A DNA stretch of 40,118 bases from Frankiaceae bacterium (lineage in GTDB: Bacteria; Actinomycetota; Actinomycetes; JAFAQI01), in contig JAFAZI010000066.1 of the NCBI GenBank assembly GCA_019239875.1, forward strand, positions 1 through 40,118, given 5' to 3'. Of the stretch, positions 11,837 through 34,563 are shown piece by piece (positions within the stretch are counted from its first letter, which is position 1; each line of letters starts with the position of its first letter). The notes under the pieces were generated by a model. That model was given only the letters and a program-made list of their open reading frames with translations. It made no database searches and was not told the origin of the DNA. The position numbers and the translations under genes are program-made.

Positions 11837-11909
11837 CACACGCGTGGTTCCTGCCGAAGGAGAACAGGTAAGCGGAGCGTCAGGTCAGCGTGCGGATGGG
11901 AGGTTGTCC

Positions 11910-14219
11910 ATGCTCAGAGGCGACCTCGTGACCACGCCCCTTGCACCCCTCCTCCTCGAACTCGGCGAGGACGCCTCCACAGGCTGCCTGGTCATCAACG
12001 ACGAGACTGGCGACGAGGCGGAGATCTTCTTCAAGAACGGCCTCGTCTACTCGGTGTTCGTTCCGGGCACCCGGCCGCAGCTCGGCGCCAAGCTCGTGTC
12101 CTCCGGTGCGCTCGCCCCCGAAGCGCTGGCCGAGGCCCTCGAGGCGCAGCGCAGCGAGCTACAGGGCTGGCGGCTCGGCGAGCTCCTGGTCCACCTCGGG
12201 TACGTCGATCAGCCCGTGGTCGAGGCGTTCGTGAAGGAGCAGGTCAGCGAGGCGCTGTGGGACCTGCTGCGCTGGACGACCGGCAAGTGGAAGTTCCGCA
12301 AGAACGTCAAGGCACGCGAGGACGTCGGCCCGCCGATGGCAGTGGTCGACCTGCTCGAGACGCTGCGCGAGCGCGGGTACGAGTGGGAGACCATCTCCGC
12401 GGTCGTGCACGGACCGACCGCCGTACCCCGCCTGTCGACGCGCGGTGACACGACCGCCGAGACGACCCTGGACAACGACGCCTGGTCGATGCTGTGCAAG
12501 ATCGACAACGAACGCTCCGTCGCCGACCTCGCCCGTGACTGCGGCTACACGCTCTTCGAAGCCGGTCACGTCATCGTCTCGCTCGTGCAGGCCGGCCTGG
12601 TCGACATCGACGAGGACATCGATCTCGACTCGCAGGAGCTGTACGGCGCGCAGACGCTGTCCTCCGCGCTGGCCGGCGACGTCGTCGAAGAGCCCGAAGA
12701 GGACGCGCTGTCCAAGCTCGCGCGGCTGGTGACCGAAGTTGCCGGCGACGCTCCGCCGGAGGGTGACGAGGAAGCGCCGGTTGCGCCGGCGCCGCGCACC
12801 GAGCGTGTCCTGTCGGCGGCCGACCTCACCGTCCCTCTCAACCGTCACAGCACCGAGTCCTTCGCCGCAGCGATCTCCCGGGTGTCGAGCGCGCTGTCCG
12901 ACGTACTCGGCGAAGCTCCCGACATCTCCCCCGAGGCCGACCTCACGCGAGTCGCCACCCATCGCCGGAGCTCCTCGTCGCAGGACGACCCAGAGTGGCA
13001 GCGCCGCAAGCGCCTGCGCTCCGCCGCGGCGGCCGAGCTCGCCAGCGCGCAGGCGCTGATCGAGACGCTTCGTCCCGACCACGACGGCTCGCCCTCGACC
13101 AGCCCCGACCTGGGGCTCGAGGTGCCGAAGGTTCTGAGCACCGAGGCCGAGCAGCGCAACCGCGAGGTACGGGAAGCCGAGGAGGCGGCCCGTCACGCCG
13201 CCGAGGAAGCGGCCCGGAGGGCGGCCGAGGAGTTCGCCCGTGCCGCCAGCGTGGAGGCGCAGCGGGTCGAGGCCGAACAGGAAGCCGCCAGGCTCGCCGC
13301 CGAAGCCGCGGAGCAAGCAGCCGCTGACGAGGCGGCCCGACTGGCCGCGGAGCAGGCCCTGGCAGAGCAGGCCGCCGCCGAAGAGGCCGAGCGTCTCGCC
13401 GCCGAGCAGGCCGCCGCCGAGGAAGCCGAGCGCCAAGCCGCCGAGCAGGCCGCCGCCGAGGAAGCCGCTGCCCAGTTGGCCGCCGAGGCGGCGGTGGCTG
13501 AGGAAGCCGCATGGGCGGAGTACTGGCAGCGCGAGGAGGCCGAGCGCGCCGCCGCCGAGGAAGCGGCCCGCATCGAGGCCGAGCGGATCGCGCAGGAAGA
13601 AGCCGAGCGGATCGCGCAGGAAGAAGCCGCTCGCCTCGCCCAGGAGGAGGCCGAGCGCGCCGCCGCCGAGGAAGCGGCCCGCGTCGAGGCCGAACGGGCC
13701 GCTGCCGAGGAAGCCGAGCGCCAAGCCGCCGAGCAGGCTGCCGCGGAGGAGGCCGCCCGACTGGCCGCAGCGGAGGCCGAGCGCCAAGCCGCCGAGGAGG
13801 CCGCCCGGCTCGAAGCTGAGCGAGTCGCCGAGGAGGAGGCGAAGGCCAACGCCAAGGCAGAGCGGGCCGCGCGCCGCAAGGCCGAGAAGGAAGCCGCCGC
13901 CGAGGCACAGCGTCGCGAGGACGAGGCGGCAGCCGCCGCCGCGATGCTCGCGGAGCTCAATGCCGCCGAGCAGGCCGAGGTCGTCGAGCCGGCCGCGGCC
14001 GAGCCGCTGCCTGAGCCGGAGGTGCTCGAGCCGGTAGGGGCGGGTGCTGCGTACGTCGATGAGCCGGAGCACGCAGACACCGCCGCGCTGCTCCGAGAGC
14101 TGTCGTCGCTGGGCGGCGACGAGCCGCGGGAGTCCGCGCCGCCGACAGCGCCGATGCGGCAGCGTCCGACACCCGCCGACAAGAAGGTCAAGAAGAAGAT
14201 CGGGTTGTTCGGCCTGTAG
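11910..14219 (+). CDS. DUF4388 (PATAN) domain protein with long Ala/Glu coiled coil
   Basis: The ATG at 11910 follows GGGAGGT at ideal spacing and gives 769 residues. Residues 1-150 are a DUF4388/PATAN domain (LRGDLVTTPLAPLLLELGE and GEIFF-type strand DEAEIFFKNGLVYSVF). A second helical, winged-helix-like section follows (about 200-260, with NDAWSMLCKIDNERSVADLA). Then comes a disordered acidic linker, a coiled coil of AAEEAAR-type repeats (about 425-690), and a basic end (KKVKKKIGLFGL). PATAN proteins connect two-component, GTPase and gliding or pilus systems. Nothing here gives a partner except the divergent rsiG. The exact function is unknown. An upstream in-frame GTG at 11844 is less likely. 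Confidence 0.85.
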   Translation: MLRGDLVTTPLAPLLLELGEDASTGCLVINDETGDEAEIFFKNGLVYSVFVPGTRPQLGAKLVSSGALAPEALAEALEAQRSELQGWRLGELLVHLGYVDQPVVEAFVKEQVSEALWDLLRWTTGKWKFRKNVKAREDVGPPMAVVDLLETLRERGYEWETISAVVHGPTAVPRLSTRGDTTAETTLDNDAWSMLCKIDNERSVADLARDCGYTLFEAGHVIVSLVQAGLVDIDEDIDLDSQELYGAQTLSSALAGDVVEEPEEDALSKLARLVTEVAGDAPPEGDEEAPVAPAPRTERVLSAADLTVPLNRHSTESFAAAISRVSSALSDVLGEAPDISPEADLTRVATHRRSSSSQDDPEWQRRKRLRSAAAAELASAQALIETLRPDHDGSPSTSPDLGLEVPKVLSTEAEQRNREVREAEEAARHAAEEAARRAAEEFARAASVEAQRVEAEQEAARLAAEAAEQAAADEAARLAAEQALAEQAAAEEAERLAAEQAAAEEAERQAAEQAAAEEAAAQLAAEAAVAEEAAWAEYWQREEAERAAAEEAARIEAERIAQEEAERIAQEEAARLAQEEAERAAAEEAARVEAERAAAEEAERQAAEQAAAEEAARLAAAEAERQAAEEAARLEAERVAEEEAKANAKAERAARRKAEKEAAAEAQRREDEAAAAAAMLAELNAAEQAEVVEPAAAEPLPEPEVLEPVGAGAAYVDEPEHADTAALLRELSSLGGDEPRESAPPTAPMRQRPTPADKKVKKKIGLFGL
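13180..13860 (+). repeat. Imperfect DNA repeats encoding the Ala/Glu coiled coil
   Basis: This stretch is built from variants of GAGGCCGAGCGC and GCCGCCGAGGAAGCG. Some blocks of over 30 nt recur almost unchanged, for example near 13537 and 13646, and near 13428 and 13718. The repeats encode heptad-like EEAERxAAE units. Slippage or length variation between strains is likely. Confidence 0.75.
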
Positions 14220-15175: not shown

Positions 15176-16741
15176 CTATTTCGTGACGTCGACCGGGTCC
15201 GAGGTGGCCGCCTCGAGGCCCGCGGTCTTTTTGATCTTCGCCACGAAGGAGTGATGGCCGACCTTGACGTGCTTCGCCACCAGCTTGTATCTCGACTTCG
15301 AGTTCAGCGTGACGCGGGTGAACTTCTTCGGCTTCGAGCCCACGACGTCGTAGATCACGACCCTGCGGCCGGCCTGCTTGGGACCGACCTTGCCCTTGAG
15401 CTGCAGCCACCGCGTGTGATGGACCGCCTTGCCCTTCAACGTGATGCGCTGTGTGACCGTCGCGCTGGTCACGCCCGAGGTCGCCGCATCGATCCCCGGC
15501 GTGGCGTCCGTGGAGTCGGTGCCGGCATAGGTGGCGACGTACGCGGCGCCTCGGGTCGGCTTGAACGCGTAGGAGTAGTTGCCGTCGCCGTCGGTCGTGA
15601 CGGTGGTCAGCTTCGTGTACTTCTTCGCGCCGGCGTCCTTGGCGTAGAGCCCGACCGTGGCGCCGGCGATGCCGTCGCCACTACCGTCCGCACCGAGGGC
15701 GAGGTTGCCGGAAAGGGTGAGCGTTCCCGGGTACGTCGTCCCGGCCGGCGCCCTGCCGATCGTGAGCGCCGAGGCCTGCTTCGTGAAGAAGCTGATCTGC
15801 GTCGGCGTACCCGCGCCGGACGCACTCGTGCCGGTCACCGTCGCGTAGTACTTCGTCGCCGCCGTGAGCCCGGAACTGGCCGCGGCCGTCGCGGTCGGCG
15901 AGCTGTGGGTGACCGTGACACCGGCATCTGTCTCGGTCGCGGTCTGGTCGGTCGAGACGACGATGTCGTAGCCGGTCGGCGTGGGTGATCCGCTGGGCGC
16001 GGACCAGGTGAGGCCGGCGTGGCTGACGGCAACGTTGTGCGCAGCCAGGTTCGTGACCGCCCCGGGGCCGTTGTCGACGGTGATGCAGCCGGTGCAGGTG
16101 GCGGTGCCACCTGCGGTGTCGGTGACCACGACGTCATAAGCACCGAGTGCCGCCGTCGAACCCGCCGACAGCGTGCCGGTGATCGTCGACGCGCCAACCG
16201 TCGGAGAGGTCAAGATGACCTGATCGGAGGTGGTGCCGCCCTGCGCGAAGGAGACGGTGTCGCCCATCGCGAACGTGCCGGTGGTCGCGTCGATCTCGAA
16301 TGACGTCGTCTGGCTTGGCTGGATGGCGGCTGACCCGCTGATGGTGGGCTGCGCCGCGGTGATCGTGACCGTCCCGCTGTCCAGCGGGATGGCTGGCGCG
16401 ACGGTCGACACCGAGAGCGTGTAGCTGCCCGGACCCGCCGGGAGGGTGCCGGGCACCATGTCGAACGTGCCCGTGACCGTGTTGGTGTTGCTGTCGACGG
16501 TCACACCGCCGGCGGCATAGGTGTCGCTGCCGCCCCCGGGCCCGGTGATCGACATGCTGGCGCCGTCGGTCTTGTAGAGCAACGCGTTGGTGGTCGACAC
16601 CGTGACCACGCGAGCGGTGTCGGTGTTCGCCCACGTGCTCGGGTCGGGGTTCACGGTCGCCGCGACCGCAGGCGCCGCGCCGAGGACTGCCGTCGTACCG
16701 ATGACGGTTGCGGTCACGACCGCGATGCTGGCAATGCGCAT
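15176..16741 (-). CDS. Secreted multidomain protein with TIG-like and fibronectin type III domains
   Basis: The 521-residue protein begins with a signal peptide (MRIASIAVVTATVIGTTAVL, likely cut after AVA at about 27). An Ala/Thr/Ser-rich beta region follows, then a TIG/Ig-like module ending in YDVVVTDTAGG with a C-x-x-C motif (Cys216, Cys219), a fibronectin type III domain (about 228-320), an Ig-like segment (about 325-435) and a basic C-terminal beta domain. No catalytic motif is seen, so a structural or adhesive surface role is inferred. The ATG is preceded by GGAG at about 11 nt. It is 14 nt downstream of a related gene and shares its domain order. Confidence 0.82.
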   Translation of the reverse strand: MRIASIAVVTATVIGTTAVLGAAPAVAATVNPDPSTWANTDTARVVTVSTTNALLYKTDGASMSITGPGGGSDTYAAGGVTVDSNTNTVTGTFDMVPGTLPAGPGSYTLSVSTVAPAIPLDSGTVTITAAQPTISGSAAIQPSQTTSFEIDATTGTFAMGDTVSFAQGGTTSDQVILTSPTVGASTITGTLSAGSTAALGAYDVVVTDTAGGTATCTGCITVDNGPGAVTNLAAHNVAVSHAGLTWSAPSGSPTPTGYDIVVSTDQTATETDAGVTVTHSSPTATAAASSGLTAATKYYATVTGTSASGAGTPTQISFFTKQASALTIGRAPAGTTYPGTLTLSGNLALGADGSGDGIAGATVGLYAKDAGAKKYTKLTTVTTDGDGNYSYAFKPTRGAAYVATYAGTDSTDATPGIDAATSGVTSATVTQRITLKGKAVHHTRWLQLKGKVGPKQAGRRVVIYDVVGSKPKKFTRVTLNSKSRYKLVAKHVKVGHHSFVAKIKKTAGLEAATSDPVDVTK

Positions 16742-16755
16742 GGGTCGAGAGTCTC

Positions 16756-18375
16756 CTACGTGCGCGTGACGGTGAACTGCTCCGACAGGCCCTTGGCGTT
16801 GCTCGACGTGTGCTTCGCGAGCACGACGAGGGTGTACGTGCCCTTCTTGCTCGGGCGGGCCGAGCTGAAGCGGAAGTGCGACTTCGCGTTGAGCGGCGTC
16901 GTCGCGATCTTGTGCCGCTTGCCGGCGCTGTTGACGGTGCAGAGGATCACGGGGCGGTTCGCCTCGTTCGGCGAGACCTTGCCCTTGACGATGAGCGGCT
17001 TGGTCCGCGACGACGTGGCGGATTTTGGCTTCGCGGTCACCACTGCGGACACCGCGATCTTGGGCGTCGGCTTCGAGATCGCCTCGCCGGTCCCGATGTC
17101 GGAGTTCGCGAAGTAGTAGGCGTAGTACGTCGCGTTGACCTGGGGCTTGTAGACGATCGTGAACCCGCCGCTGTTGTTCGTCACCGCCGACTTCCCGGTG
17201 TACACGGCCTTCGAGGTCGTCGGCTTCTGCAGCAGGTAGACGGTCTGGTTCGCGAGACCCTCATTGCCCTGGGTGAGCAGACCGCTGAAGTTCACGGGTT
17301 CACCGAACGACACCTTGTTCGTGTCGCCCTGCAGGGTGATGTGTGTCGTCTCGCCCGTGGTGATGACCTTGCTCGCCGGATCGCCGGAGCCCGAGTTGTT
17401 GCTCGGGACGACGGAGATCGTGTACTGCGTGCCGGCCGTCAGGCCCTTGATGTCTGCAGAGGTGCCGGCGCCGCTGTTGGCAACGGTCGTGGTAACGCCC
17501 GGGTCGTTGGAGAGGGCGCCGGTCTTGGAGGCGTAGACGGAGTACGCAGTTGCGCCTTCGGATGCGGTCCACGTGGCAGTGGCGGTGGTGGAGCCGGTGG
17601 CCTGTGCATCGAGGTTCGTCACCGGTGCCGGTGCGCCGGGTGGGGTGCCCACTCCGACGACGTGCAGGCACTGGCTGCAGACGCCGGTCTGACCGGCGGT
17701 GTCGGTCACCGTGACGTCGTAGAGCCCGGCCGGGACGGTGAGGTCGACGGCGAGGGTGCCCTTGAGGTCGGTTGCCGAGCTGGTCGCGTTGTCCTCGGTG
17801 AAGGTCAGCTTGTTCGCGGCGACTCCGGCCACGGACAGCGACTCGAGCTTTGCGAAGCCCGTGCCTGGGATGTCGACCGCACCCGACGTGCCCTGGGTGA
17901 TCGCCATCTGGGTGACGTTGCCGGCCGGGGTGGGCGCGTCACCAGTCACAGTAAGAGTGGACGTGTCCAGCGGCGGCGCGGCGCAGGACACCGCGCAAAC
18001 GTCAAGGTTGTACACGCCCGGCGCTGCGGGCAGAGCACCTGGCTTCAGATTGAACGTCATGTCGACCTTGGAGCCAGTGCAGACGAGCGCCACGCACCCG
18101 GTCCCGGTCACGGTCGGGGTCGCACTTGCATACGTGTTGTCCGACTCGGTGTGGCTGCCCGGACCCTGCAGCTGAGCGGCCGGAACGGTCAGCAGGACTG
18201 GCAGGTCGCTGGTGTTCACGGAGACCGCGCCAGCCACGGCGGTGTTCGCCAGCTGGTTCGGTGTCGGCCCACCTGTCACGCTCGCGTGCGCCGCAGGTGC
18301 GCTCGTCACCACGCCGGCGGCGATGACTGCCGAAATCACCGAGAGACCGAACAATTTGCGCACGGGTGCCTTCAT
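16756..18375 (-). CDS. Secreted multidomain protein, paralogue of the downstream gene
   Basis: The ATG at 18375 gives 539 residues. The signal peptide (KLFGLSVISAVIAAGVVTSA) ends near AHA at 31. The protein then parallels its neighbour: an N-terminal beta region with four extra cysteines (94, 99, 127, 131), a TIG-like module ending in YDVTVTDTAGQ with C-x-x-C (Cys233, Cys236), a fibronectin type III domain (about 250-345), an Ig-like region and a basic C-terminal domain. TACCGT lies 7 nt before the ATG, so it is probably leaderless and heads a two-gene operon. The frame extends upstream to 18429, but without support. Tandem duplication is inferred; function unknown, likely cell-surface or matrix. 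Confidence 0.82.
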   Translation of the reverse strand: MKAPVRKLFGLSVISAVIAAGVVTSAPAAHASVTGGPTPNQLANTAVAGAVSVNTSDLPVLLTVPAAQLQGPGSHTESDNTYASATPTVTGTGCVALVCTGSKVDMTFNLKPGALPAAPGVYNLDVCAVSCAAPPLDTSTLTVTGDAPTPAGNVTQMAITQGTSGAVDIPGTGFAKLESLSVAGVAANKLTFTEDNATSSATDLKGTLAVDLTVPAGLYDVTVTDTAGQTGVCSQCLHVVGVGTPPGAPAPVTNLDAQATGSTTATATWTASEGATAYSVYASKTGALSNDPGVTTTVANSGAGTSADIKGLTAGTQYTISVVPSNNSGSGDPASKVITTGETTHITLQGDTNKVSFGEPVNFSGLLTQGNEGLANQTVYLLQKPTTSKAVYTGKSAVTNNSGGFTIVYKPQVNATYYAYYFANSDIGTGEAISKPTPKIAVSAVVTAKPKSATSSRTKPLIVKGKVSPNEANRPVILCTVNSAGKRHKIATTPLNAKSHFRFSSARPSKKGTYTLVVLAKHTSSNAKGLSEQFTVTRT

Positions 18376-18382
18376 AGGCGAA

Positions 18383-18388
18383 ACGGTA
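18383..18388 (-). promoter_or_regulatory. Putative -10 box of the secreted-protein operon
   Basis: TACCGT on the minus strand is 7 nt upstream of the ATG at 18375, in the 75-bp gap after the histidine kinase stop. No Shine-Dalgarno is visible. Confidence 0.45.
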
Positions 18389-18450
18389 CGGCGACGTTGA
18401 GCAGAATGTGGCGGAATCCCCAGATTCACCCGTGTCGCTGACGATTGCGG

Positions 18451-20787
18451 CTAGTAGAGCCGCACCACCTTGCCGGAGCTGTCCTCGGGTGCCCGTTGCG
18501 CGGGCGCAGTGACTGGCGGGGTCGCGGTCGACGCGGCGGCGTCGACGGAGGCCGGGAGGGTCAGGACGAAAGTTGATCCGGCCCCGGGCAGGGACGAGAC
18601 GGTCACGTCGCCACCCATCGCCCGCGCGAGCCGGCGCGTGATGTAGAGGCCGAGGCCGGTGCCGGTCTGCTTGCGTGACTCCTCGAGCCGCTCGAAGCGT
18701 TCGAAGATGCGCTCCTGTGCCTCCTCGGAGATGCCCGGCCCGCGGTCGGTGACGCTCACGTTGACCAAGCCGGCCTCGCAGGACACGACCACGTCGACAG
18801 GCGAGTCGTCCGGGGAGTACTTCACGGCGTTGGCGACGAGGTTGGCGAGGGCGCGGTCGACCCACACGGTGGACCCACGGACCGGACACGGCACCTGCGG
18901 CGGCCGGACCCGGATCACCCGGTCCGGACGCGCGGCGAGCACGTCCTCGACGACGTGTACGGCGACTGCGGCGACGTCGACCAGGTCGAGCGCCTCGGAC
19001 TGGCCCGCCTCGACGCGGGAGGACTCGAGAATGTTGAGGACGAGCGCCTCGAGCCGCTGCGCCTGGGTGAGGATGCTCTGCACGGCCGTACGCCGCTGGT
19101 CGTCAGAGAGCCGGTCGCCGCGGTTGAGCAGCGTCTGGGCCCAGCCCTTGATGGGGACCAGCGGCGTACGGAGCTCGTGGGAGACCACGGCGATGAAGTC
19201 GTCCTTGAGGACTTCGAGCTCGCGGGCCTGGGTGATGTTTCGGGCGACGATGATCAGCGACTCGACCCCGTCGTCCTTGGCCGGCACCTGGCTGTAGGAG
19301 CACGAGAGCCAGACCGTCGCACCGTCGGCAGTGACGATTTGCATCTCGGAGGCAAGCCCGCCTGCGGCGTACCGCTCCGACCAGCCGCCGACGTGGAGAT
19401 CGACGTCGTGGGCGTCGCGCGGGCGGAGCAGGCCGAAGTGGCGGGTGTCGATCATCTCGTCGGCGGAGTAGCCGGTGATGGCCTCCATCGCCGTGTTCCA
19501 AGAGAGGATCGTTCCTTCCGCATCGATCGACACGATGCCGTCGCCCGTGTGCTGGACGATGTCGTTGAGCTTGCGGCGTTCCTCTTCGATCGCGCCGACC
19601 AGCTCCACCCGCTCGAGGAAGCCGACCAGCTCGCGGGCGAAGGCACCTGCGACCGCCAGCTCGCCGGCCTCGAACCCCTCGGCGCCTTCGCGGTCGAGCA
19701 GCAGGAGGACACCGAAGGTCTGGCCACCGGATCGGAGCGGGGCGGCGAGACCGCGCTGGTAACCCATCCGGCCGAGGGCAGCCGCGACGTCGCCGCCACT
19801 GGAGCCAAGTCGGGCAGGAGCGATCAGGGTGTCGACGAGGAGCTCGGCGAGGCCGTGCGGCGCAGTGGTGACGCTGTAGCCGTCGGGACCGTCCAGGCAG
19901 CTGTAGGTGGTCGGAAAGCCTCGCTCGGCGACCAGCACGAGCTGCACCTCGCGGACCTCGAAGCCTGCCCGCGCCGTAGCAAGTGACGGCGCCAGCGCAA
20001 TGGCTGGGTCGAGAGATGTCGCCAGGTGATGGGTGGCACGTTGCAGGCCGTCGAGCAGGCGGCGGTCAGCGTGGATCGACGCCTGCGCACGGCCGGCTGA
20101 CCACAGGAAGACCATCGGACCGGCGGCGAGAGCGCCCGTCCAGGGCACCCAGACGTAGGCGGCGGTGGTCAGCAGACCGAGGACGGTCGAGCCGGCAAAC
20201 CCGCCGAGGCGACCGAGCAGAACCATCCAGAGCATGCCGTGGTCGCCGGAACCCAACGGGTGGCCCGTGACGCACCAGAGGACGCCGCCCATGAACATCT
20301 GGTTGGTCAACCAGACGGCGAGCATCGCACCGACGAGCGCGACGACATCGGAGGTGCTGGAGCCGAGGCCGGCGCCGGAGGCGTGGAACGCGAGCAGGCC
20401 GACGCAGGCGGAGGCAACCCACTGCGCGATGTTGAAGACTGACTTGAGGACACCGTTACGTCGTACGGCGCTTGCGACCAGCAAGCCGCACCCAACGGCG
20501 ATCACGACCTCGAGACCGGAGCCGCGGAAGATCAGCGGCGCGAACATCGCCTCGATGAGGTTGTTCGCGGCGATGTCCTGCCGGTGGAAGTAGCGGATCT
20601 GCAGGCACTCGCCGAGCGCGATCAGCGCGACGAAGACCACCAGATAGCCGGGTGCGATGGCGTCTGTGCCGGGGACCGCGAGGGCAGCCCACGTCGACAC
20701 CACGGCCGCGAGCGCGACCACGGTGGCGACGTACAGCCGAGTGCGCACCGCCCGTGAGCGATGCGCCTCGGCCAGGGGATGGGTCAC
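18451..20787 (-). CDS. Membrane sensor histidine kinase (GAF-PAS-HisKA-HATPase)
   Basis: The GTG at 20787 gives 778 residues. Six or so membrane helices fill about residues 18-230. A GAF-like domain follows (about 250-395), then a PAS domain (about 405-520, DGIVSIDAEGTILSWN), HisKA with His537 in FIAVVSHELRTP, and an ATPase domain with N-box Asn653, DRGPG at 681-685 and TGTGLGL at 708-714. All kinase boxes are intact. The start overlaps the stop of the upstream subtilase gene (GTGA at 20784-20787), so translation is coupled. No response regulator is adjacent. The longer open frame at the N-terminus is a frame shadow of the subtilase repeats and is excluded. Confidence 0.93.
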   Translation of the reverse strand: MTHPLAEAHRSRAVRTRLYVATVVALAAVVSTWAALAVPGTDAIAPGYLVVFVALIALGECLQIRYFHRQDIAANNLIEAMFAPLIFRGSGLEVVIAVGCGLLVASAVRRNGVLKSVFNIAQWVASACVGLLAFHASGAGLGSSTSDVVALVGAMLAVWLTNQMFMGGVLWCVTGHPLGSGDHGMLWMVLLGRLGGFAGSTVLGLLTTAAYVWVPWTGALAAGPMVFLWSAGRAQASIHADRRLLDGLQRATHHLATSLDPAIALAPSLATARAGFEVREVQLVLVAERGFPTTYSCLDGPDGYSVTTAPHGLAELLVDTLIAPARLGSSGGDVAAALGRMGYQRGLAAPLRSGGQTFGVLLLLDREGAEGFEAGELAVAGAFARELVGFLERVELVGAIEEERRKLNDIVQHTGDGIVSIDAEGTILSWNTAMEAITGYSADEMIDTRHFGLLRPRDAHDVDLHVGGWSERYAAGGLASEMQIVTADGATVWLSCSYSQVPAKDDGVESLIIVARNITQARELEVLKDDFIAVVSHELRTPLVPIKGWAQTLLNRGDRLSDDQRRTAVQSILTQAQRLEALVLNILESSRVEAGQSEALDLVDVAAVAVHVVEDVLAARPDRVIRVRPPQVPCPVRGSTVWVDRALANLVANAVKYSPDDSPVDVVVSCEAGLVNVSVTDRGPGISEEAQERIFERFERLEESRKQTGTGLGLYITRRLARAMGGDVTVSSLPGAGSTFVLTLPASVDAAASTATPPVTAPAQRAPEDSSGKVVRLY

Positions 20788-22484
20788 GCCCAGTAGCCGT
20801 ACCAGCTGGTGCCGTACCACGAGGTGCCGTACCAACTCGTGCCGTACCAGCTGGTCCCGTACCAGCTCGTGCCGTACCAGGAAGTGCCGTACCAGCTGGT
20901 CCCGTACCAGCTCGTGCCGTACCACGACGTGCCGTACCAGGAGGTGCCGTTGAAGTTCGCAGCCAGCATCGTGAGGAAGTTCCACGGCGTGAGCTGGGCG
21001 GTGACCTCACCGTTGACGACGGTCGCGCCGCCGGCGCCGTTGACCTGGACGTTGACCGAGCCGCGGTCGGCCTGCAGGGAACCCAGGCCGGTGCTCGGCG
21101 TGATGCCCTGGTTGGCGAGACCCGCCGGAGCCGAGAGAGCGGCGTAACCGTCCACCAAGCCCGCACCGACCGCCATCGGGTCGTCACCGGCGTCGGACTG
21201 CGCGGTGTTCATCAGGGCGAACTTCACGCGGTTCGGTGACCAGTCGGGGTGAGCCGACAGGATGTCGGCGACCAGACCCGAGACCACGGCGGTCGAGAAC
21301 GACGTACCAGCGGCCTGCCGGTAAGGCGCTGCCATCGCCGGCGGGTGGTTCACCGTCAGGGAGGCACCAGGAGCGGCCAGCGACACCAGACCCACGCCGG
21401 GCGCGGTGATGTCGGGCTTGGCGAGACCATCGGCGGCTGTCGGACCGCGGGCCGACCAGAACGGCACGGTGTCGTCGGAGAGGTCGACCGTGCCGTTGTC
21501 GTCCGTCGCACCGACCGTGATGACGAACGGGTCGTCAGCCGGCTTGTCGACGGTGCTGGCGCCGGGGCCGAGGTTCGACGCGGAGACCAGCGTGGTGATC
21601 CCGGCGTTCCATGCCTTCTCCACGGCGTAGTCGAGGGGGGAGAGCTGGTAGCTCTGGGTGCCGTCGGTGCCGAGGGAGAGGTTGAGGACCTTGATGTTGT
21701 AGGTGTTCTTGAACGTGATGACCCACTGCAGCGCGGCGATCACGGTCGAGACGTCGGCGGAGCCGTCGGCGCCCGCGACCTTGACCGAGAGCAGCTTCGC
21801 ACCCGGCGCGACACCGGCGTACTTGCCGCCGGAGGCAGCACCGTTACCCGCGACCAGGCCACCGATGTACGTGCCGTGACCGAACAGGTCGGTGCACGTG
21901 CCGTCGCCGGTGAAGTTGACGCAGTTGGCGCGGTGGCCGACCGGGTCGGTCTGGACACTGACGAGGCGGCCCGAGGTGTCGGCCATCGAGGAGATGCCGG
22001 TGTCGAGGACCGCGACCGTCACGCCGTGCCCGTCGGCACCGGCCGACTGCAGCCGGTCGGCGCCGGTCACCTGCTGGTAGACGTTCGGCGGGTTCTGCGG
22101 GCTCGCGGTCATGCCCACCGGCGCTGCCTGGACGGTCATGTGCGTGTCGCGAACGATCGTCTTCACGCCAGGCGTGTGAGCCAGCTGCGAGATCTTGGCA
22201 GCGGGGATCGTTGCCGAGTACCCGCCGATCAGCGGCAGATCGTGGGTGACCTTGCCGCCGAGCTCGGCGATGGTGGACTCGGTGGCGCGCGCCCCTTGCA
22301 CCAGGACGTGCGCCGTACCCGAGATCCCCGACAGCGTCGGGTCGACGGCCGCGGACACGGCACTGGTGAGGCCGTTCCCCGCGTCCGGCGCAACCGCTGG
22401 GGCCGCCACCGCCCATGAAAGTGCGGCGACGGCCATAGCAGCGATTGTGCTTCGAAGCCGGCTGGTGGACACAGTCAGCGTCAT
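20784..22484 (-). CDS. Secreted S8 family subtilase with C-terminal GTSWY repeats
   Basis: The ATG at 22484, after a GGAGGG Shine-Dalgarno, gives 566 residues. A signal peptide (about 1-32) and a propeptide-like inhibitor region (about 55-120) precede the catalytic domain. The triad is Asp161 (VLDTG), His203 (GHGT) and Ser395 (GTSFS), with oxyanion Asn304. Residues 513-562 are ten perfect GTSWY repeats, and the protein ends GYWA. No sortase motif is present. Similar S8 proteases with aromatic tails occur in actinobacteria from memory. The function of the tail is unknown; wall or glycan binding, or polymerisation, is possible. It is coupled to the downstream kinase gene. Confidence 0.92.
   Translation of the reverse strand: MTLTVSTSRLRSTIAAMAVAALSWAVAAPAVAPDAGNGLTSAVSAAVDPTLSGISGTAHVLVQGARATESTIAELGGKVTHDLPLIGGYSATIPAAKISQLAHTPGVKTIVRDTHMTVQAAPVGMTASPQNPPNVYQQVTGADRLQSAGADGHGVTVAVLDTGISSMADTSGRLVSVQTDPVGHRANCVNFTGDGTCTDLFGHGTYIGGLVAGNGAASGGKYAGVAPGAKLLSVKVAGADGSADVSTVIAALQWVITFKNTYNIKVLNLSLGTDGTQSYQLSPLDYAVEKAWNAGITTLVSASNLGPGASTVDKPADDPFVITVGATDDNGTVDLSDDTVPFWSARGPTAADGLAKPDITAPGVGLVSLAAPGASLTVNHPPAMAAPYRQAAGTSFSTAVVSGLVADILSAHPDWSPNRVKFALMNTAQSDAGDDPMAVGAGLVDGYAALSAPAGLANQGITPSTGLGSLQADRGSVNVQVNGAGGATVVNGEVTAQLTPWNFLTMLAANFNGTSWYGTSWYGTSWYGTSWYGTSWYGTSWYGTSWYGTSWYGTSWYGTSWYGYWA
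20796..20945 (-). repeat. Ten 15-bp repeats encoding GTSWY
   Basis: Ten 15-bp units, for example GCCGTACCAGCTGGT on the plus strand, run without a break. Every unit encodes the same five residues, yet Thr uses ACC, ACG or ACT, Ser uses both the TCN and AGY families (four and six units), and Gly uses GGC or GGG. Trp and Tyr codons do not vary. Confidence 0.95.
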
Positions 22485-22875: not shown

Positions 22876-23811
22876 TCAAGCCGCGGCTGACCAAGACCTT
22901 CCGGCGTCAGACGTGATGTAGGAGACGCCGCTGCTGGACGCCAAGCCGGTCCCGGCGTCGGTGATCGCGACGACGGCGCTCGGCTTCAGGTCTTTCAGGC
23001 ACTGACCTGCCGACCAGTGCCCGCCAGCGTTCGCCGTAGCCACCAGGAGCAGCCCGGAGCAACCGCTGGCGCCCTTGAGGGCAGCGACCGCGGTGCCGCC
23101 GGTCGCCAGCGACGCGTTGACGATCTGGCCGGAGGGCAGGCCGGTGACCGTTCGCCAGCTCTTGCCCCCGTTCGAGGTCCGCCGCAGGCTGTCCGAGCAG
23201 ACGACGAACGCGTCGGCGGAGCCGGACGGAGACAGCGCGATCTGCCCTGCCGGCTTCGTGCCGCACGGCTTGGAGAGCTTGCCCCTTGGAGTGTGAACAC
23301 CGGTGGGGAGGGAGATCCAGACCTGGCCCAGTGAGCCCGCCGCCGACCAGGTCTGCCCGCCGTCAGTCGTCGAGTAGTAGGTGGGGTGGCACTTGCCATC
23401 GGCTCCGATCACCCAGATGTTCAAGGCGTCGGTCTGTACGACGCGCAGGATGTGGGGCGCCGGCGCCGTCAGCGCGGCCGTCGTCGCGCCGCCATCGATC
23501 GTCGTCCGGAGATCCGGGCTTCCCTTGCAGCCATAGTTCGCCAGCGTCGCCGTCGTCCCGTCGACCGTGCTGACAAGCGGCGCTGCATTCTTCACGGGCG
23601 GCGACGCGGGCGGCGCGGTCGAGGTTCGCGTCGGCTTGGGAGATGAGCTCGTCGAGTGGGTGGTGTGCTGCGAGCTCGCGGGTTGGATGGTGACGACCTG
23701 CGACGGGTCCTGACCTCGTCCGTGATGCCAGGCGAGGCCGACCAGGAGCATGTCGATGATGACGAGCAACGCGATGACGACTGTCGGCCCAGCCTCCAAA
23801 CGATGTCGCAC
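22876..23811 (-). CDS. Membrane-anchored BNR/Ycf48-like propeller protein
   Basis: The GTG at 23811 gives 311 residues: one N-terminal membrane helix (about 10-28, VVIALLVIIDMLLVGLAW), a Ser/Thr/Pro-rich linker (about 40-75) and an extracellular beta domain with repeated sialidase-type Asp-box motifs (STTDGGQTW, TSNGGKSW, TANAGGHW, TSDAGRSW). There are several paired cysteines. Such repeats form propellers used for binding, as in Ycf48/HCF136; sialidase catalytic residues are not evident. A second protein of the same build lies at 25243-26175 in the same glycan locus, so a role in surface polysaccharide assembly or recognition is inferred. It is divergent from the sugar transferase gene. Confidence 0.8.
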   Translation of the reverse strand: MRHRLEAGPTVVIALLVIIDMLLVGLAWHHGRGQDPSQVVTIQPASSQHTTHSTSSSPKPTRTSTAPPASPPVKNAAPLVSTVDGTTATLANYGCKGSPDLRTTIDGGATTAALTAPAPHILRVVQTDALNIWVIGADGKCHPTYYSTTDGGQTWSAAGSLGQVWISLPTGVHTPRGKLSKPCGTKPAGQIALSPSGSADAFVVCSDSLRRTSNGGKSWRTVTGLPSGQIVNASLATGGTAVAALKGASGCSGLLLVATANAGGHWSAGQCLKDLKPSAVVAITDAGTGLASSSGVSYITSDAGRSWSAAA

Positions 23812-24033
23812 CAAAAAAGAACATCATGATCAACCGTGTGCGCGGTGGTGACGCGCCGCATCAGTGACCGATCAGAACGATTGCGGCGGATTTCGAAAAC
23901 CAACCTCGCAAAGGTGCCGTCCGATATCCTGGCATTAAGTTGCTCGACGAAACGACCGATGACAACACGGCCTTGAGCGTGTCAAACTGCGCTTCGCAGT
24001 CAAACCCCCCAACACGATGACTGAGGTGGATCG
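23812..24033 (+). promoter_or_regulatory. Divergent promoter region with small hairpin
   Basis: This 222-bp region separates the propeller gene from the sugar transferase gene and is AT-richer than its surroundings. A possible -10 for the rightward gene is TATCCT at 23925-23930, giving a leader of about 95 nt. Within it, a short hairpin ACTGCG-CTT-CGCAGT is at 23986-24000. No convincing -35 was seen. Confidence 0.4.
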
Positions 24034-24816
24034 TTGCAGCAGCGGCTTACGGTCGCCCCTAGCCAGCTGCCGACCGATCAGCGTCATGCCGCCACCCGCA
24101 AGCGGGTGCTGGACGTCGTTGTCGCATCGGCCCTGACACTGCTGACCGCCCCACTCGTTCTGGTTCTCGCGATCGGGGTTGCGATCACCCTTCGGGCCTG
24201 GCCCGTGTTCAGCCACTGGCGAATTGGCCAGCACGGCCGGCCGATCCGGGTGTTCAAGCTGCGAACCCTGCCGACCAGCACGCCGCCGTACGCGGACAAG
24301 TTCGAGCTCCAGATCGAGGATCTGCCGTTGCCATGGCTGTGTCGTGTGCTGCGGCGCACCCACATCGACGAGTTGCCGCAGCTGTGGCTCGTCGTCGCCG
24401 GGAAGATGAGCATGGTGGGGCCGCGACCGGTCCAGGGCCCCGATATCGAACCGGTCCCCGAGACGTTCAGCGCGCTGCGTTCGGCCATCCGGCCGGGGTG
24501 TACCGGCCTCTGGCAGATCAGCGAGGCGTCCGGCGGTACGGCGACCAGCGCGCCGGAGTACGACCGCTTTTATATCGACAAGGCCTCGGTACGTTTTGAC
24601 CTCTGGATCCTGGCTCGCACGGTCGGGTGGATGCTGTGCCTGATCAAGCCGGTCACCATCGACGACATCCCGCGATGGGTTCGAGGCGTCGGCCTTGCCT
24701 CTGAGGGACACGAGGTCTCGATCGACCCGCGTCACAAGCGCCACCTGGTCGAACTCGTCACCCAGCACGTCCAGGCACTCGAGGACGACGCGTCACTTGC
24801 CTCGATTGGCGACTGA
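24034..24816 (+). CDS. Initiating sugar-phosphate transferase (PF02397, ExoY/WcaJ-type core)
   Basis: The TTG at 24034, after GAGGTGG, gives 260 residues. It has one N-terminal membrane segment (about 27-50) and the catalytic core of undecaprenyl-phosphate sugar-1-phosphate transferases: FKLRTL, LRRTHIDELPQLW, MSMVGPRP, RPGCTGLWQ and YDRFYIDKASVRFDLWIL. The four-helix N-terminal domain of WcaJ is absent, so it is of the short ExoY-like form. It should start repeat-unit assembly by moving a hexose-1-phosphate to undecaprenyl phosphate. The first sugar is not predictable. Its C-terminus (about 50 residues) is acidic and not part of the family core. It marks the start of the exopolysaccharide locus. 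Confidence 0.92.
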   Translation: MQQRLTVAPSQLPTDQRHAATRKRVLDVVVASALTLLTAPLVLVLAIGVAITLRAWPVFSHWRIGQHGRPIRVFKLRTLPTSTPPYADKFELQIEDLPLPWLCRVLRRTHIDELPQLWLVVAGKMSMVGPRPVQGPDIEPVPETFSALRSAIRPGCTGLWQISEASGGTATSAPEYDRFYIDKASVRFDLWILARTVGWMLCLIKPVTIDDIPRWVRGVGLASEGHEVSIDPRHKRHLVELVTQHVQALEDDASLASIGD

Positions 24817-24868
24817 CAGCGTCAACGCCTCACCACCGCGCTAGTGTCAACGCGAACGAATAGGTGGA

Positions 24869-25264
24869 GTGCGCATTCCTTTGGACGACTGGCAGCTCGA
24901 ACTCAAGCCGATGCGGGCCGTGCCGCCCAAAGCGAGCCGGTCGACGAAAGTCGATCGTCTTGTGTCCGGGTCATCAAGCGACGTCATCCTGACCTTGCTC
25001 GCCGAACTGCGTGAGAGCTTGGCTCGGATCGAGGACCGCATAACGGCACTCGAGCATTCGCTGGGCGCCAGCACGACCGTCCCGCGACCCGCTGAGGTAG
25101 CGGCCCCAGCCGTCCGCGCGCTGCGTCGCAGCCCCAACCCGAGCGATCCGTTCGACATGAAGCTGATGGCCCGCCGGATGCGGGCAGCGGTCACCGACGA
25201 AACCGCACCGGTATCAGTCGATACGGGTGCGGGCGGCGAGGATCAGACCCAGGACCTGCCGTAG
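24869..25264 (+). CDS. Hypothetical protein
   Basis: The open frame encodes up to 131 residues. GTG at 24869, TTG at 24880 and ATG at 24911 are all possible starts; an AGGTGGA motif just before 24869 fits the TTG best. The protein is hydrophilic, with one clear amphipathic helix (about 38-65, ILTLLAELRESLARIEDRIT) that could be a short coiled coil, and disordered ends. No family is recognised. It follows the sugar transferase by about 50 nt and its 3' end overlaps the convergent propeller gene by 22 nt. The likely role is small and accessory to the glycan locus, but that is only from position. Confidence 0.55.
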   Translation: MRIPLDDWQLELKPMRAVPPKASRSTKVDRLVSGSSSDVILTLLAELRESLARIEDRITALEHSLGASTTVPRPAEVAAPAVRALRRSPNPSDPFDMKLMARRMRAAVTDETAPVSVDTGAGGEDQTQDLP

Positions 25265-26175
25265 TCAGTCGTCTGGTAGGTCCCGCTAGCAGTGGTCAGC
25301 AGCCCCGAACCTTGCGCGCTCATGCTGGCGAAGGCGGGCGGTGCGGCCGCCCGCAGGCATGGGCCGACGGACCACGTGCGGCCAGCATTGGCGGTGTCCA
25401 TCACCCGCATGCCTTGGCACAACGGCGACTGCGTGAGGAACAGGGCGCCGCGACCGCTTCGGGACATCGCGAGAGCAGCGGCACGGCCCGCCGGCAACTT
25501 CGCTGTGGGCGTCCACGAGTGCCCACCATTAGCCGTCCGGAACACCCCGACCCGGCACACGACAACTGCGAGGCGATCGGTGCCGGCGGAGAGGAAGACG
25601 GGCGTAGGTGACGTCTTCCGGCAAGGCTTCGAGACCACGCCCTGCGCACTCCGCACGCCGAAGGGCGAGGCCACCCAGCTCCGATGAAACCCAGGCGCAG
25701 CGTGCCATCGAAAGCCGCCGTCCGTCGTTGTGTAGGTCTTGGCAATCGTGCAGGTTTCATCCGCGCCGAGCACCCGACCACTTCGCTTTCCGGTGACCTG
25801 TACGGCCAAGATTCGCGGTGCCGGCTGTCTCAATGGCTGCCACGTGACCCCTGCATCCTTTGTCACCGCGAGGTCCGCCGGTGTCGCACAACCACCGGTG
25901 GCGCGCCAAGCCTCGGTTGTGCTGCCCGCCGAGAACAGCAAGGGCACTGACAGCTTCTCGGCACGGATCGAGCCCGCCTTGGTGCTCAGGCGCAGCGGAT
26001 TCTTCGTGTGGTGGTGCTTGGTCGCCGTTGCTGTCGGAGTAGATCGCGGCACCGCGCGCGGCTCGTCACTCGACAGGTACCGAGCGAGCGCGTAGCCGAC
26101 CAGACCGACGTTGAGGGCCAGCAAGACGATGACTGCGAGCCGCCCGGTGATCCGACCGGCCGAATCCCGCCTCAC
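25243..26175 (-). CDS. Membrane-anchored BNR/Ycf48-like propeller protein, coupled to the tyrosine kinase
   Basis: The GTG at 26175 overlaps the stop of the upstream autokinase gene (GTGA). The 310-residue product has a membrane helix at about 12-34, a Thr/His-rich linker and a beta domain with Asp-box repeats (VTKDAGVTW, TTTDGGFRW, TANGGHSW, TANAGRTW, TTDYGRSW). It shares build and motifs with the protein at 22876-23811 (the Asp boxes, six or more cysteines), so they are paralogues, though quite diverged. Catalytic sialidase residues are not seen. Co-translation with a chain-length/tyrosine-kinase protein suggests an extracytoplasmic partner of the glycan assembly machine. Confidence 0.82.
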   Translation of the reverse strand: MRRDSAGRITGRLAVIVLLALNVGLVGYALARYLSSDEPRAVPRSTPTATATKHHHTKNPLRLSTKAGSIRAEKLSVPLLFSAGSTTEAWRATGGCATPADLAVTKDAGVTWQPLRQPAPRILAVQVTGKRSGRVLGADETCTIAKTYTTTDGGFRWHAAPGFHRSWVASPFGVRSAQGVVSKPCRKTSPTPVFLSAGTDRLAVVVCRVGVFRTANGGHSWTPTAKLPAGRAAALAMSRSGRGALFLTQSPLCQGMRVMDTANAGRTWSVGPCLRAAAPPAFASMSAQGSGLLTTASGTYQTTDYGRSWV

Positions 26176-27647
26176 GTCTTGGTTCGGGAAGTCGTCACCT
26201 CGGTGGACGCCCTTTGCGAGTCGGCCCGCGGGGTCGTACGTGGCGAACGCCGGAGTGTCGACGGCGCCTTGCCGTTCTGCGGCCGCGAGGGCCCGGTCAG
26301 GATCGGGATCTCCGCGGTCCGCTCGCTCCCGTACACATAATCGGCATACATGCCCCGGAGATCGCTCCGCGGCACTGCATTGAGCACGTACCCGAGAACG
26401 TTGGCGCCCACGGTCTCCAACCGACGGACGGCTTCGGCCGCGCTGTGACGCATCGTCGTGCCCGCGCGCACCACGAGGATCACCCCGTCGACCTGGGCGG
26501 CGAGCGAAAGGGCGTCATCGACCGGGAGGACCGGCGGCGCGTCGATGACCGTGATGTCGGCGCGCCGCGACACATCTTTCAACAGCTGGCCGAACAGCTG
26601 GGATCCGAGGATCTCCGACGGATTCGGTGGGAGCGGTCCAGTCGCGAGGACCGACAACCGTGGGCCCCACTCTTGAAGGGCGTCGGTGACATCGGTGTTG
26701 CCGAGGACGAGATTCGTGAGACCGACAGCGCTTTCGAGGCCGAAGGTCTGGGCGAGGCGCGGCTTGCGGAGGTCAGCGTCGATCGCGATCACATGGTCAC
26801 CAGAGAGCGCGAATGCCGCAGCGAGGTTGGCGGCGGTGACCGTCTTGCCGTCACCCGGCGACGGACTGGTGACCAGGATCGACCGCAGCGGCCGGTCCGG
26901 ATCGAGGAAGCGGATTGCCGTACGCGCGGAACGGTAAGGCTCAGCATCCGGGGAGTTTGTGGTGAGGTCTACGACGAGCGGTCCAGCCCGGCGTTTGGGA
27001 ACGAGTCCGACGAGCGGCCGGCCGAGCACTGCGTCCGCCTGCGCTGTCGACTTGATGGTTCGGTCCAACGCCTCGAGCAGCGCCGCCATGCCGAGACCGG
27101 CCAGCAGACCGAGGATCAGGCCAACGAGGAGATCGAGCCGCGGGCGTGGGCTCACCGGGGCGCCTGGCAGGGCCGCTGGGCTCGTCGTCTGGACTGTGAT
27201 CTTTTGCGGCACGCCGGATTGAAGCTTCGCCACGGTCGAGCCAAGTGCCTTGGCGCCGGCGTTGGCGGTGAGCTGGGCAAGTACCGGCGTGGTCGAGGTC
27301 GCACTGACGTCGATGAGGTATGTGTTGGTGACCGCTTTCGCCGACAGACCCTGGGCTCCGACCGACACACCCCGGTCGGCGAGCAGCGCGCTCGCACGCG
27401 ACAGTACGATCTTCGAGTTGATCAGGCCCACATAGGTCTGCACCAGGCTCCCGGCCAACTGGGTCCCGAGCACCTGCGTCTGGACGCTCTGACTCGGCGG
27501 GATGTTGACCAAGCACTCGGCGGTCGCTCGGTATTGCTTGGTGCCTCGATGTCCGAGGTCGAAGCCCCCCGCGATGCCCATGATGAGGCACAGCACCACC
27601 ACGAGCCACCGGCGTCGCAAGATCGCGATCGCGCCTAGGAGGTCCAT
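26172..27647 (-). CDS. Polysaccharide co-polymerase fused to BY-type tyrosine autokinase
   Basis: This 491-residue protein joins a Wzz-like chain-length domain and a CpsD-like kinase. Membrane helices lie at about 13-29 and 172-195, with a Pro-rich stretch (PGAPVSPRP) before the second. Cytoplasmic kinase motifs are Walker A SPSPGDGKT (261-269), Walker A' VIAIDADLRKP (286-296) and Walker B ITVIDAPPV (365-373). Three tyrosines cluster at GMYADYVYG (432-440), rather than in a long tail, which ends in a basic Ser/Thr-rich region. BY-kinases regulate length and export of surface polysaccharides. TAGCCT is 6 nt before the ATG. It is divergent from the Wzy-like gene. Confidence 0.93.
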   Translation of the reverse strand: MDLLGAIAILRRRWLVVVLCLIMGIAGGFDLGHRGTKQYRATAECLVNIPPSQSVQTQVLGTQLAGSLVQTYVGLINSKIVLSRASALLADRGVSVGAQGLSAKAVTNTYLIDVSATSTTPVLAQLTANAGAKALGSTVAKLQSGVPQKITVQTTSPAALPGAPVSPRPRLDLLVGLILGLLAGLGMAALLEALDRTIKSTAQADAVLGRPLVGLVPKRRAGPLVVDLTTNSPDAEPYRSARTAIRFLDPDRPLRSILVTSPSPGDGKTVTAANLAAAFALSGDHVIAIDADLRKPRLAQTFGLESAVGLTNLVLGNTDVTDALQEWGPRLSVLATGPLPPNPSEILGSQLFGQLLKDVSRRADITVIDAPPVLPVDDALSLAAQVDGVILVVRAGTTMRHSAAEAVRRLETVGANVLGYVLNAVPRSDLRGMYADYVYGSERTAEIPILTGPSRPQNGKAPSTLRRSPRTTPRADSQRASTEVTTSRTKT

Positions 27648-27653
27648 CCCGTC

Positions 27654-27700
27654 AGGCTACGTGGTTCCGCCCTCCGGTTTGCCAAATCTCGCACTACGGT
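27654..27700. promoter_or_regulatory. Back-to-back leaderless promoters of kinase and polymerase genes
   Basis: In the 59 bp between divergent starts, minus-strand TAGCCT (27654-27659) lies 6 nt before the ATG at 27647, and plus-strand TACGGT (27695-27700) lies 6 nt before the GTG at 27707. Neither gene has a visible Shine-Dalgarno. The closeness means RNA polymerases on the two strands must compete. Confidence 0.5.
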
Positions 27701-27706
27701 TATGGA

Positions 27707-29290
27707 GTGACCCGCGCGGTTTGGGCTGTCGGTCCTGGGGCGCCGCCTCGCCTCGGTGACTTCCTGGGGTGGACCATCGGCCTGGGGACGGCGGCGTTCG
27801 TGTTTGCCGATCTGAGCTTCGGGGGCCTTCACGCAGCGGAGCTGACGATCGGTGGCGCCGTGACGCTGCTCGCCGTGCTTGCGTTTGTGCGGTGGCCGGG
27901 TATGGCGATCGGCGCCGTCCTTGTCTTCGTGCCTCTACAGGTCCCGGTACTCGCGTACCTTTACAAGCACGGCATGCCCGGCGTCGTTGCCCGCGATCTC
28001 GGCTACCTCAAGGACGCGGCCATCCTCGGCGTCGGTCTCTGTGCCGTGCTTCGAACGTCTGGGAATGACAAGACCGATCGCTGGAATCTCGACCTGGTGG
28101 ACAAGTTCGCGATCGGGTACGTCGGGATCGCGACGGCCTACCTCCTGCTGCCGCTCGCCGCGCCAGGCGCACTCGGCGGCGAGCCATGGGGAGTTCGTCT
28201 GGGTGCTTGGCGGATCGACTGCCTGTTCGCGATCCTGCTGCTCGCGGCCAAGCGGGTGTCGCTGTCGATGCGAACGCTGCGCCGAATCCGCACCACAGTG
28301 TTCGTCGTCGCGGCGACCATTTTCGGGGTCGCGATCTGGGAGTCCGTCAGCTCCGACGGCTACAACCGCTTCTTGGTGAGAACGCTCGGCGTTCCGATCT
28401 ACCAGATAGCCGTCCTCCACACCTCACCACCGCCCGGGTACAGCTACGTCGTCCACGCGCAGGAGGGAAGTGGCATCCGGGTCGGTAGCCTCCTGCTTGA
28501 CCCGCTCGTCCTCGGGTTCTTCATGGTGCTGCCACTGGCTTACGGCCTTGAGCGCCTGTCAGGGTCACGGCCACGACTGCTTCCGCTCGCGGGCGTAGCG
28601 GGCGGCGCAGTGTCGATCGTGATGACGCAGACTCGAAGCGCGATCCTCAGTGGCGGCGTTGTCATTCTGCTCAGCGTCTGGCTCGCCGCGCGGCGCCGGT
28701 CCTCCGGTCGCCTGCCGCTTGTGATTCTCCTGGTCGGGACAGGCATACTCCTCGCGCCGTACCTCGCACAGAGCTCCGCATGGTCCCGGATTCAAAGCAA
28801 CCTCTCTGTCCAGACCGAGGACAACCAACAGCACATCACCCGGACGACCAACGGGTTCAACTCGCTTCTCCGCCATCCTGCCGGCTTCGGCCTCGGCGCG
28901 AATCCGGCGACTGGCGTCCGCAGCCAGACCGCCAATGCGACCAACACCGAGAACTCCTATCTCGGCGTCGGGTCAGAACTCGGCGCGGCCGGAATGCTGT
29001 GCTTCATCGGGTTCTATGTGGCCACGCTCGTCGAGCTGCGTCGGCGTGCCCAGGGGGAGTCAGAAACCGCGAAGCTCGCCGGCGCATCGTGGCTTGCGGG
29101 CTTCGGCCTCCTGGTCGGTGGCCTCTTTCTCCCGATCTGGATCAGCTTCCCCGTCGCGCTGACGTTCTGGGGTCTGGCAGGTCTCGGCCTCGCCCGTCCG
29201 GCCGCCGACGACGACGAGCTTTCCTCCGGCCTGCCGCATACCGTCGCGACACCGCGACAGAGCGAGACGGCGACACCCGTGTCAGTGTGA
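27707..29290 (+). CDS. Wzy/O-antigen-ligase-like polytopic membrane protein
   Basis: The 527-residue protein has roughly twelve hydrophobic segments spread over residues 15-500 and a large extracytoplasmic loop (about 365-425, with NQQHITRTTNGFNSLLRHP and GLGANPATG), the layout of the Wzy_C/O-antigen ligase family. GFGLGAN and the ENSYL stretch are typical of the C-terminal loop. It should polymerise or ligate glycan repeat units on the outer face of the membrane. GTG at 27707 fits a leaderless start. Its 3' end overlaps the convergent glycosyltransferase gene by 9 nt. Polymerase versus ligase cannot be told from sequence. Confidence 0.88.
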   Translation: MTRAVWAVGPGAPPRLGDFLGWTIGLGTAAFVFADLSFGGLHAAELTIGGAVTLLAVLAFVRWPGMAIGAVLVFVPLQVPVLAYLYKHGMPGVVARDLGYLKDAAILGVGLCAVLRTSGNDKTDRWNLDLVDKFAIGYVGIATAYLLLPLAAPGALGGEPWGVRLGAWRIDCLFAILLLAAKRVSLSMRTLRRIRTTVFVVAATIFGVAIWESVSSDGYNRFLVRTLGVPIYQIAVLHTSPPPGYSYVVHAQEGSGIRVGSLLLDPLVLGFFMVLPLAYGLERLSGSRPRLLPLAGVAGGAVSIVMTQTRSAILSGGVVILLSVWLAARRRSSGRLPLVILLVGTGILLAPYLAQSSAWSRIQSNLSVQTEDNQQHITRTTNGFNSLLRHPAGFGLGANPATGVRSQTANATNTENSYLGVGSELGAAGMLCFIGFYVATLVELRRRAQGESETAKLAGASWLAGFGLLVGGLFLPIWISFPVALTFWGLAGLGLARPAADDDELSSGLPHTVATPRQSETATPVSV

Positions 29291-30451: not shown

Positions 30452-30506
30452 TGACGGAATTCGAGCCTAGCCGTCAGCCTCGCGCATCCGGGTCGACCAC
30501 CGTCGA

Positions 30507-30512
30507 TAGGTT
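30507..30512 (+). promoter_or_regulatory. Putative -10 box of the glycosyltransferase operon
   Basis: TAGGTT lies 6 nt before the ATG at 30519, with no Shine-Dalgarno. The position implies a leaderless mRNA for the operon that runs to 36484. Confidence 0.45.
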
Positions 30513-30518
30513 GAGCCG

Positions 30519-31550: not shown

Positions 31551-31557
31551 GCGTTGG

Positions 31558-31563: not shown

Positions 31564-31570
31564 GGGCCAC

Positions 31571-34562: not shown

Positions 34563-34563
34563 C

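Follow-up and report, generated by a model that had tools for sequence, protein, structure and literature searches.

On the minus strand of contig JAFAZI010000066.1 from a Frankiaceae bacterium (assembly GCA_019239875.1), a gene for a putatively secreted subtilase with a C-terminal tryptophan-repeat tail overlaps the gene for a membrane sensor histidine kinase. The window analysed is the whole stretch of 40,118 nucleotides in which this gene pair lies. The initial annotation, made from the sequence alone, described a family S8 protease ending in ten GTSWY repeats and sharing a GTGA overlap with a PAS-containing histidine kinase, and these features were confirmed by open reading frame (ORF) analysis, Pfam and Tandem Repeats Finder (TRF). 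The features of the pair are as follows.

20784-22484, minus strand: S8 subtilase with a tryptophan-pentapeptide tail, the first gene of the pair, 566 amino acids from an ATG start (Pfam).
22389-22484, minus strand: putative N-terminal signal peptide, approximately residues 1-32, suggested by a basic and then hydrophobic sequence read directly.
21192-22031, minus strand: Peptidase_S8 catalytic domain, residues 152-431 (Pfam E=3e-45; alignment).
20799-20948, minus strand: ten GTSWY repeats forming the C-terminal tail, residues 513-562 (sequence, TRF).
20784-20787, minus strand: GTGA, in which the protease stop codon overlaps the GTG start of the kinase (sequence).
18451-20787, minus strand: membrane sensor histidine kinase, 778 amino acids, with a membrane domain, a weak GAF domain, PAS, HisKA and HATPase_c (Pfam).
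20089-20736, minus strand: membrane domain, residues ~18-233, with 6-8 predicted hydrophobic helices and short outside loops (profile and hydropathy of 44 paired members).
20422-20436, minus strand: FNIAQ motif of the membrane domain, containing Asn119 (40-row and 31-row alignments).
19003-19206, minus strand: HisKA phospho-acceptor domain (Pfam E=1.9e-15).

The protease belongs to family S8, its Pfam match scoring 155 bits against a cutoff of 21.8. The catalytic triad of Asp161, His203 and Ser395 and the oxyanion residue Asn304 are all intact, and are invariant in an alignment of 23 family members. The closest sequence in the PDB is the subtilisin-like serine protease 3afg, and the likeness to other subtilases (PF00082) lies in this catalytic domain. 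The best NCBIfam match of the catalytic domain is mycosin (TIGR03921), an assignment which was rejected as the score of 132.1 bits falls far below the equivalog cutoff of 278.75 bits; the window protease differs, moreover, in ending with a tryptophan-repeat tail. Nor did the window ORFs scanned with Pfam include any type VII secretion family.

The tail consists of exactly ten perfect GTSWY copies, followed by GYWA and the stop codon, and is detected by TRF as a 15-nucleotide array at 20796-20950. Eight of the ten DNA units are distinct and all of the pairwise codon differences between them (78 of 78) are synonymous, which indicates that the repeat has been kept by selection at the protein level and is not merely a fresh duplication of DNA. 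The tail has no Pfam repeat match. Assignment to the classical pentapeptide repeats (PF00805, A(D/N)Lxx) was rejected: the family model does not recognise the tail, whose consensus is [GA]-x-S-W-x with tryptophan at every fifth position.

The kinase begins with the GTG at 20787; a longer ORF from 20985 merely reads the GTSWY repeats in another frame. By its domains it is an orthodox sensor histidine kinase, with a HisKA domain carrying the phospho-acceptor histidine within a VVSHELRTPL motif and a HATPase_c domain. It had been described as a GAF-PAS kinase; the PAS domain is clear, whilst GAF is only weakly recognised by Pfam (E=0.003), although it is clear in the related locus L015 described below. 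As had been stated, no response regulator is found nearby, at least among the window ORFs scanned with Pfam.

Conservation of the pairing was surveyed in 396 genomes of the phylum, many of them fragmentary; tails and adjacency were judged on mechanically derived ORFs and the pairing was tallied by hand. A profile of the membrane domain identified 105 places in 67 genomes, 100 of which were examined together with L015, giving 101 loci. At 45 of these a same-strand S8 gene ends between 3 nucleotides inside and 239 nucleotides upstream of the matched domain, and every one of the 45 encoded proteases carries a tail with tryptophan spaced by five, in runs of 4 to 38. An in-frame, four-nucleotide NTGA overlap is present in 14 of the 45. 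From the opposite side, a profile of the catalytic domain of this tailed S8 subfamily identified 75 genes in 51 genomes, of which 65 were testable after exclusion of six truncated at the end of a contig and four that are tandem copies within one operon. A membrane-domain gene lies directly downstream of 54 of these 65. Among the other 11, two have the sensor directly upstream, three have it as a divergent neighbour (one of these three proteases is without a visible tail), one has it about 1.6 kb away and five stand alone. In any arrangement, therefore, 59 of the 65 adjoin a membrane-domain gene. Divergent pairs are seen in genomes G117 and G245 and sensor-first pairs in G197 and G292 (loci L102, L103, L211 and L212); such arrangements show that the association outlives operon order. 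At L100, L123, L211 and L253 the tailed protease is tandemly duplicated before or behind a single sensor gene.

Amongst S8 genes outside the subfamily (34 weaker and 7 borderline matches), none of 41 has the tail or such a neighbour; the profile scores of the two kinds overlap between ~238 and 278 bits, and in that range the tail and not the score decided. All 51 genomes with a tailed S8 gene also encode the membrane domain, 44 by the first profile and seven by an improved one which, being built from paired loci, gives scores that favour paired members. For the first profile alone, the co-occurrence has a Fisher p of ~6e-34. Within the window's own order, tailed S8 genes occur in 13 of 13 genomes, and 24 of 27 testable loci are directly paired. 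Thus the pairing is conserved in relatives, and the protease seldom occurs without a sensor neighbour; the initial annotation had named the opposite outcomes as grounds for abandoning a link between the two genes. An origin of the adjacency by chance, or as a side effect of how the genomes are organised, might be argued from the membrane-domain genes and tailed S8 genes which occur alone, yet chance is refuted by the contrast between 54 of 65 and 0 of 41, and by recurrence of the pair in dozens of genomes amid unrelated flanking genes, such that this explanation retains a negligible probability.

The defining property of the tail is a tryptophan every five residues. In the last 260 residues of the paired S8 proteins, a tryptophan follows the previous one at a distance of exactly five in 687 of 830 cases and of ten in a further 43, whilst in the catalytic domains of the same proteins a spacing of five is seen in only 5 of 148. 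The average consensus is [GA]-x-S-W-[STY], and the residues other than tryptophan differ from locus to locus (GTSWY, SASSW, GGNWY, NSWHG, ARQWS, GTRWT, GKSWT, RWVGDDW). Five loci, furthermore, possess the tail without the protease. In these, a short protein composed of a signal-peptide-like start and tryptophan repeats is encoded directly upstream of the membrane gene. The repeats are of the types GISWVGAQ (L096), GISWTAAP (L131 and L142), GISWLGAIW (L163) and EVRWN (L111); the first four loci fall in one clade and L111 in a separate, distant part of the tree. A sixth candidate, L141, was dropped, having no clear signal peptide and near relatives (L137 and L140) which are without it. Because the tail occurs without the protease in these five loci, what consistently accompanies the membrane domain appears to be the repeat and not the protease. 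The earlier interpretation of a functional protease–sensor linkage is thus partly supported: the pairing is conserved, but the protease domain is not its constant element. Tail similarity tracks membrane-domain similarity beyond what S8 similarity accounts for (partial Mantel r=0.22, p=5e-4).

The initial annotation had suggested that the tail could bind wall or matrix glycans. Aromatic residues at even intervals are a typical feature of repeats that bind carbohydrate; in the tail, Pfam recognises no glycan-binding repeat, choline-binding or similar. The main rival to the direct-contact interpretation developed below is that a wall or matrix polymer holds the protease in place through its tail, whilst the sensor monitors either that polymer or what proteolysis yields, protease and sensor being co-expressed for one task without touching. 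In addition to the aromatic spacing, this explanation can draw on the exopolysaccharide gene cluster which the window pair adjoins. The scanning of 66 flanking genes across loci, however, revealed no shared neighbour and no common polysaccharide family, which confines any polymer link to the individual locus and leaves the pair alone as the conserved unit. The residues between the tryptophans vary widely and include charged types such as DVARWVGDDW, and the retention of a protease-free tail beside the sensor is left unexplained. On balance we regard polymer anchoring as unlikely, albeit the most credible of the alternatives.

Hydropathy analysis of the 44 paired membrane domains reveals six clear hydrophobic segments, some of them long enough for two helices. 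The connecting loops are short, making an outside partner plausible, and positive charge is located on the side of the cytoplasmic output. Asn119, within an FNxAQ motif, is invariant in both alignments, and further conserved polar residues (E60, E79, R110, K115, N200 and R233) likewise lie in or near membrane helices. The window domain does not match MASE9 (PF20972), but 10 of 40 paired members do at E<=0.01; when ten domains were tested on their own, two exceeded the 24.3-bit cutoff (L098 with 29.3 bits and L083 with 24.4). From these profile matches it is best called a divergent MASE9-like domain, probably a distant relation of MASE9. The conserved polar residues, together with the C-terminal position of the tail, which is also that of sorting signals, might be taken to mean that the membrane domain sorts or processes the tail, retaining or trimming the exported protein whilst the cytoplasmic part reports on the traffic. 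Against this, sorting tags are single short motifs and not arrays of 4-38 repeats, R110, K115 and N119 are on the predicted cytoplasmic side, and the domain matches no known membrane peptidase or transferase family. A role in sorting thus seems highly improbable.

The cytoplasmic parts of the membrane proteins are diverse. Amongst 40 examined, 25 have a kinase output, 13 have GGDEF and EAL domains, one has SpoIIE and one lacks a recognised output domain; GAF and PAS domains are frequently interposed between membrane domain and output. The outputs are interchangeable while the input parts stay the same. Partner outputs of kinase, GGDEF and HD-GYP type had been anticipated; the first two were borne out, whilst HD-GYP was encountered only in membrane-domain proteins without a tailed partner. 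These belong to a separate branch which lacks tailed partners altogether, and the family is accordingly wider than the pairing. The outputs also bear on a feedback explanation, in which the sensor detects stress in the envelope and regulates the operon of its own protease, and the two proteins never touch. The genes are indeed co-directional, with short gaps or overlaps, and a kinase is the output in most cases. Nevertheless, 13 of 40 outputs are enzymes of cyclic dimeric guanosine monophosphate (c-di-GMP) metabolism, for which control of a single operon is not obvious; response regulators account for just 5 of the 66 flanking genes; and feedback does not require a conserved tail. Feedback alone consequently appears improbable as an account of the pairing.

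A sensor which is almost devoid of outside parts, and which is inherited together with an exported repeat protein, suggests a split receptor. We propose, with a probability of roughly 0.5, that the membrane domain has its extracellular part in detached form, namely the secreted repeat, which docks on it, so that the two genes would constitute a conserved two-protein sensing module. The first protein would be exported carrying its C-terminal array of tryptophan pentapeptides, and the second would present a MASE9-like membrane domain of six to eight helices with scarcely any extracellular part of its own. The tryptophan repeats would dock on the outer face of this domain, in most cases carrying the protease along. 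The attached output, whether kinase, diguanylate cyclase/phosphodiesterase or phosphatase, would then be switched by a change at the tail: its arrival or release, its loss to another binder, or proteolysis in which the S8 domain is either the agent or the target.

Several observations weigh against this proposal. At least a third of the membrane-domain genes were found without a tailed neighbour, implying that the domain can function unaccompanied or with a partner encoded elsewhere, and five tailed S8 genes of the phylum set have no adjacent sensor. The partial Mantel correlation fits docking without proving it, and may also be a product of common descent. The analysis shows the conserved pairing and repeat, the conserved active site, the interchangeable outputs and the tail-only variants; docking itself, what triggers it and which way the signal passes are inferred, and a linked function in which the proteins do not directly touch would accommodate most of the data as well. 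The two AlphaFold models are too poor to be of use (pLDDT, the predicted local distance difference test score, of 42 and 31, from two-row alignments).

Most integral-membrane sensory domains of MASE type have, to our knowledge, no known ligand. One group of such domains would gain a testable input from a secreted partner that is genetically fixed and can be recognised by its tryptophan at every fifth residue. If the split-receptor proposal is correct, signalling would count a family of secreted proteases among its components, and one extracellular input would serve both phosphorelay and c-di-GMP outputs in bacteria that are known for the most part from metagenome assemblies. It can be suggested more generally, though tentatively and at slightly less than even odds, that a large class of the phylum's MASE9-like sensors may have tandem tryptophan-repeat polypeptides, alone or behind a subtilase, as their cognate partners outside the cell. 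Such a general input module would let extracellular proteolysis, or a surface polymer made by the cell itself, feed into phosphorelay and c-di-GMP signalling. No description of the gene pairing was found in the open-licence literature, and the link between protease tail and sensor would apparently be an undescribed route from an extracellular protease, or its tail, to intracellular signalling.

A number of parallels can be drawn with known systems. The MASE group, including MASE9, provides the same type of multi-helix membrane input before GAF and PAS domains and kinase or GGDEF-EAL outputs; in addition to the missing MASE9 match of the window domain, no secreted partner of MASE9 was found described in the open-licence literature. 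TorS and LuxQ are sensors with a separate extracytoplasmic partner, TorT and LuxP, respectively. The likeness, as we infer it, is that a membrane kinase relies on a secreted protein for its outer portion. Here, by contrast, the partner is a protease or a bare tryptophan-repeat protein, and the sensor has no sizeable outside domain. In Bacillus, CssS controls HtrA, and the coupling of CssRS to HtrA is transcriptional. Both cases join an envelope protease to a sensor kinase, the present one being distinguished by a conserved gene pair, a repeat tail and interchangeable outputs. Compared with other S8 proteases, the window family is set apart by the combination of a tryptophan-pentapeptide array and a constant sensor neighbour, absent from the 41 other S8 genes examined.

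Further members of the family are present in the same genome. Contig C159 (L013, 8447-12425) carries a second pair, in which an S8 protease with SASSW repeats again shares a GTGA overlap with its partner, a 469-residue protein with the same membrane domain and without a kinase domain. A separate HisKA_3-type kinase gene follows the membrane protein, and a LuxR/NarL-type response regulator is encoded divergently upstream. Pairs of a tailed S8 protease and a membrane protein of ~475 residues recur in several genomes of the window's order. A third tailed S8 gene, on contig C117, stands alone, and two membrane-domain genes of this genome are without a tailed neighbour. A scan of named genome records yielded a single close relative, L015, from an Acidimicrobiaceae metagenome-assembled genome, whose tail is built of GGNWY repeats and whose neighbouring gene encodes a kinase like that of the window. 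The scan of viral contigs returned no close relative, and only ordinary S8 proteases were among the plasmid matches listed.

Elsewhere in the window, the exopolysaccharide-type cluster adjoining the pair extends from 22876 to 39761 and encodes an initiating sugar transferase, a Wzz/tyrosine autokinase, a Wzy-like ligase, several glycosyltransferases and an ABC-2 exporter with a Wzt-like ATPase. At 22876-23814 and 25243-26175, both on the minus strand, are genes for two BNR/sortilin-like proteins, each with a hydrophobic segment at its N-terminus; these genes flank that of the sugar transferase and are situated between the protease gene and those of the polysaccharide cluster. The kinase gene is directly followed on its own strand by two adjacent ORFs with fn3 domains (15176-18429, minus strand), one of which is also weakly purple-acid-phosphatase-N-like. 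Finally, a DUF4388 protein with a long Ala/Glu/Arg-rich repeat region is encoded on the plus strand at 11844-14219.

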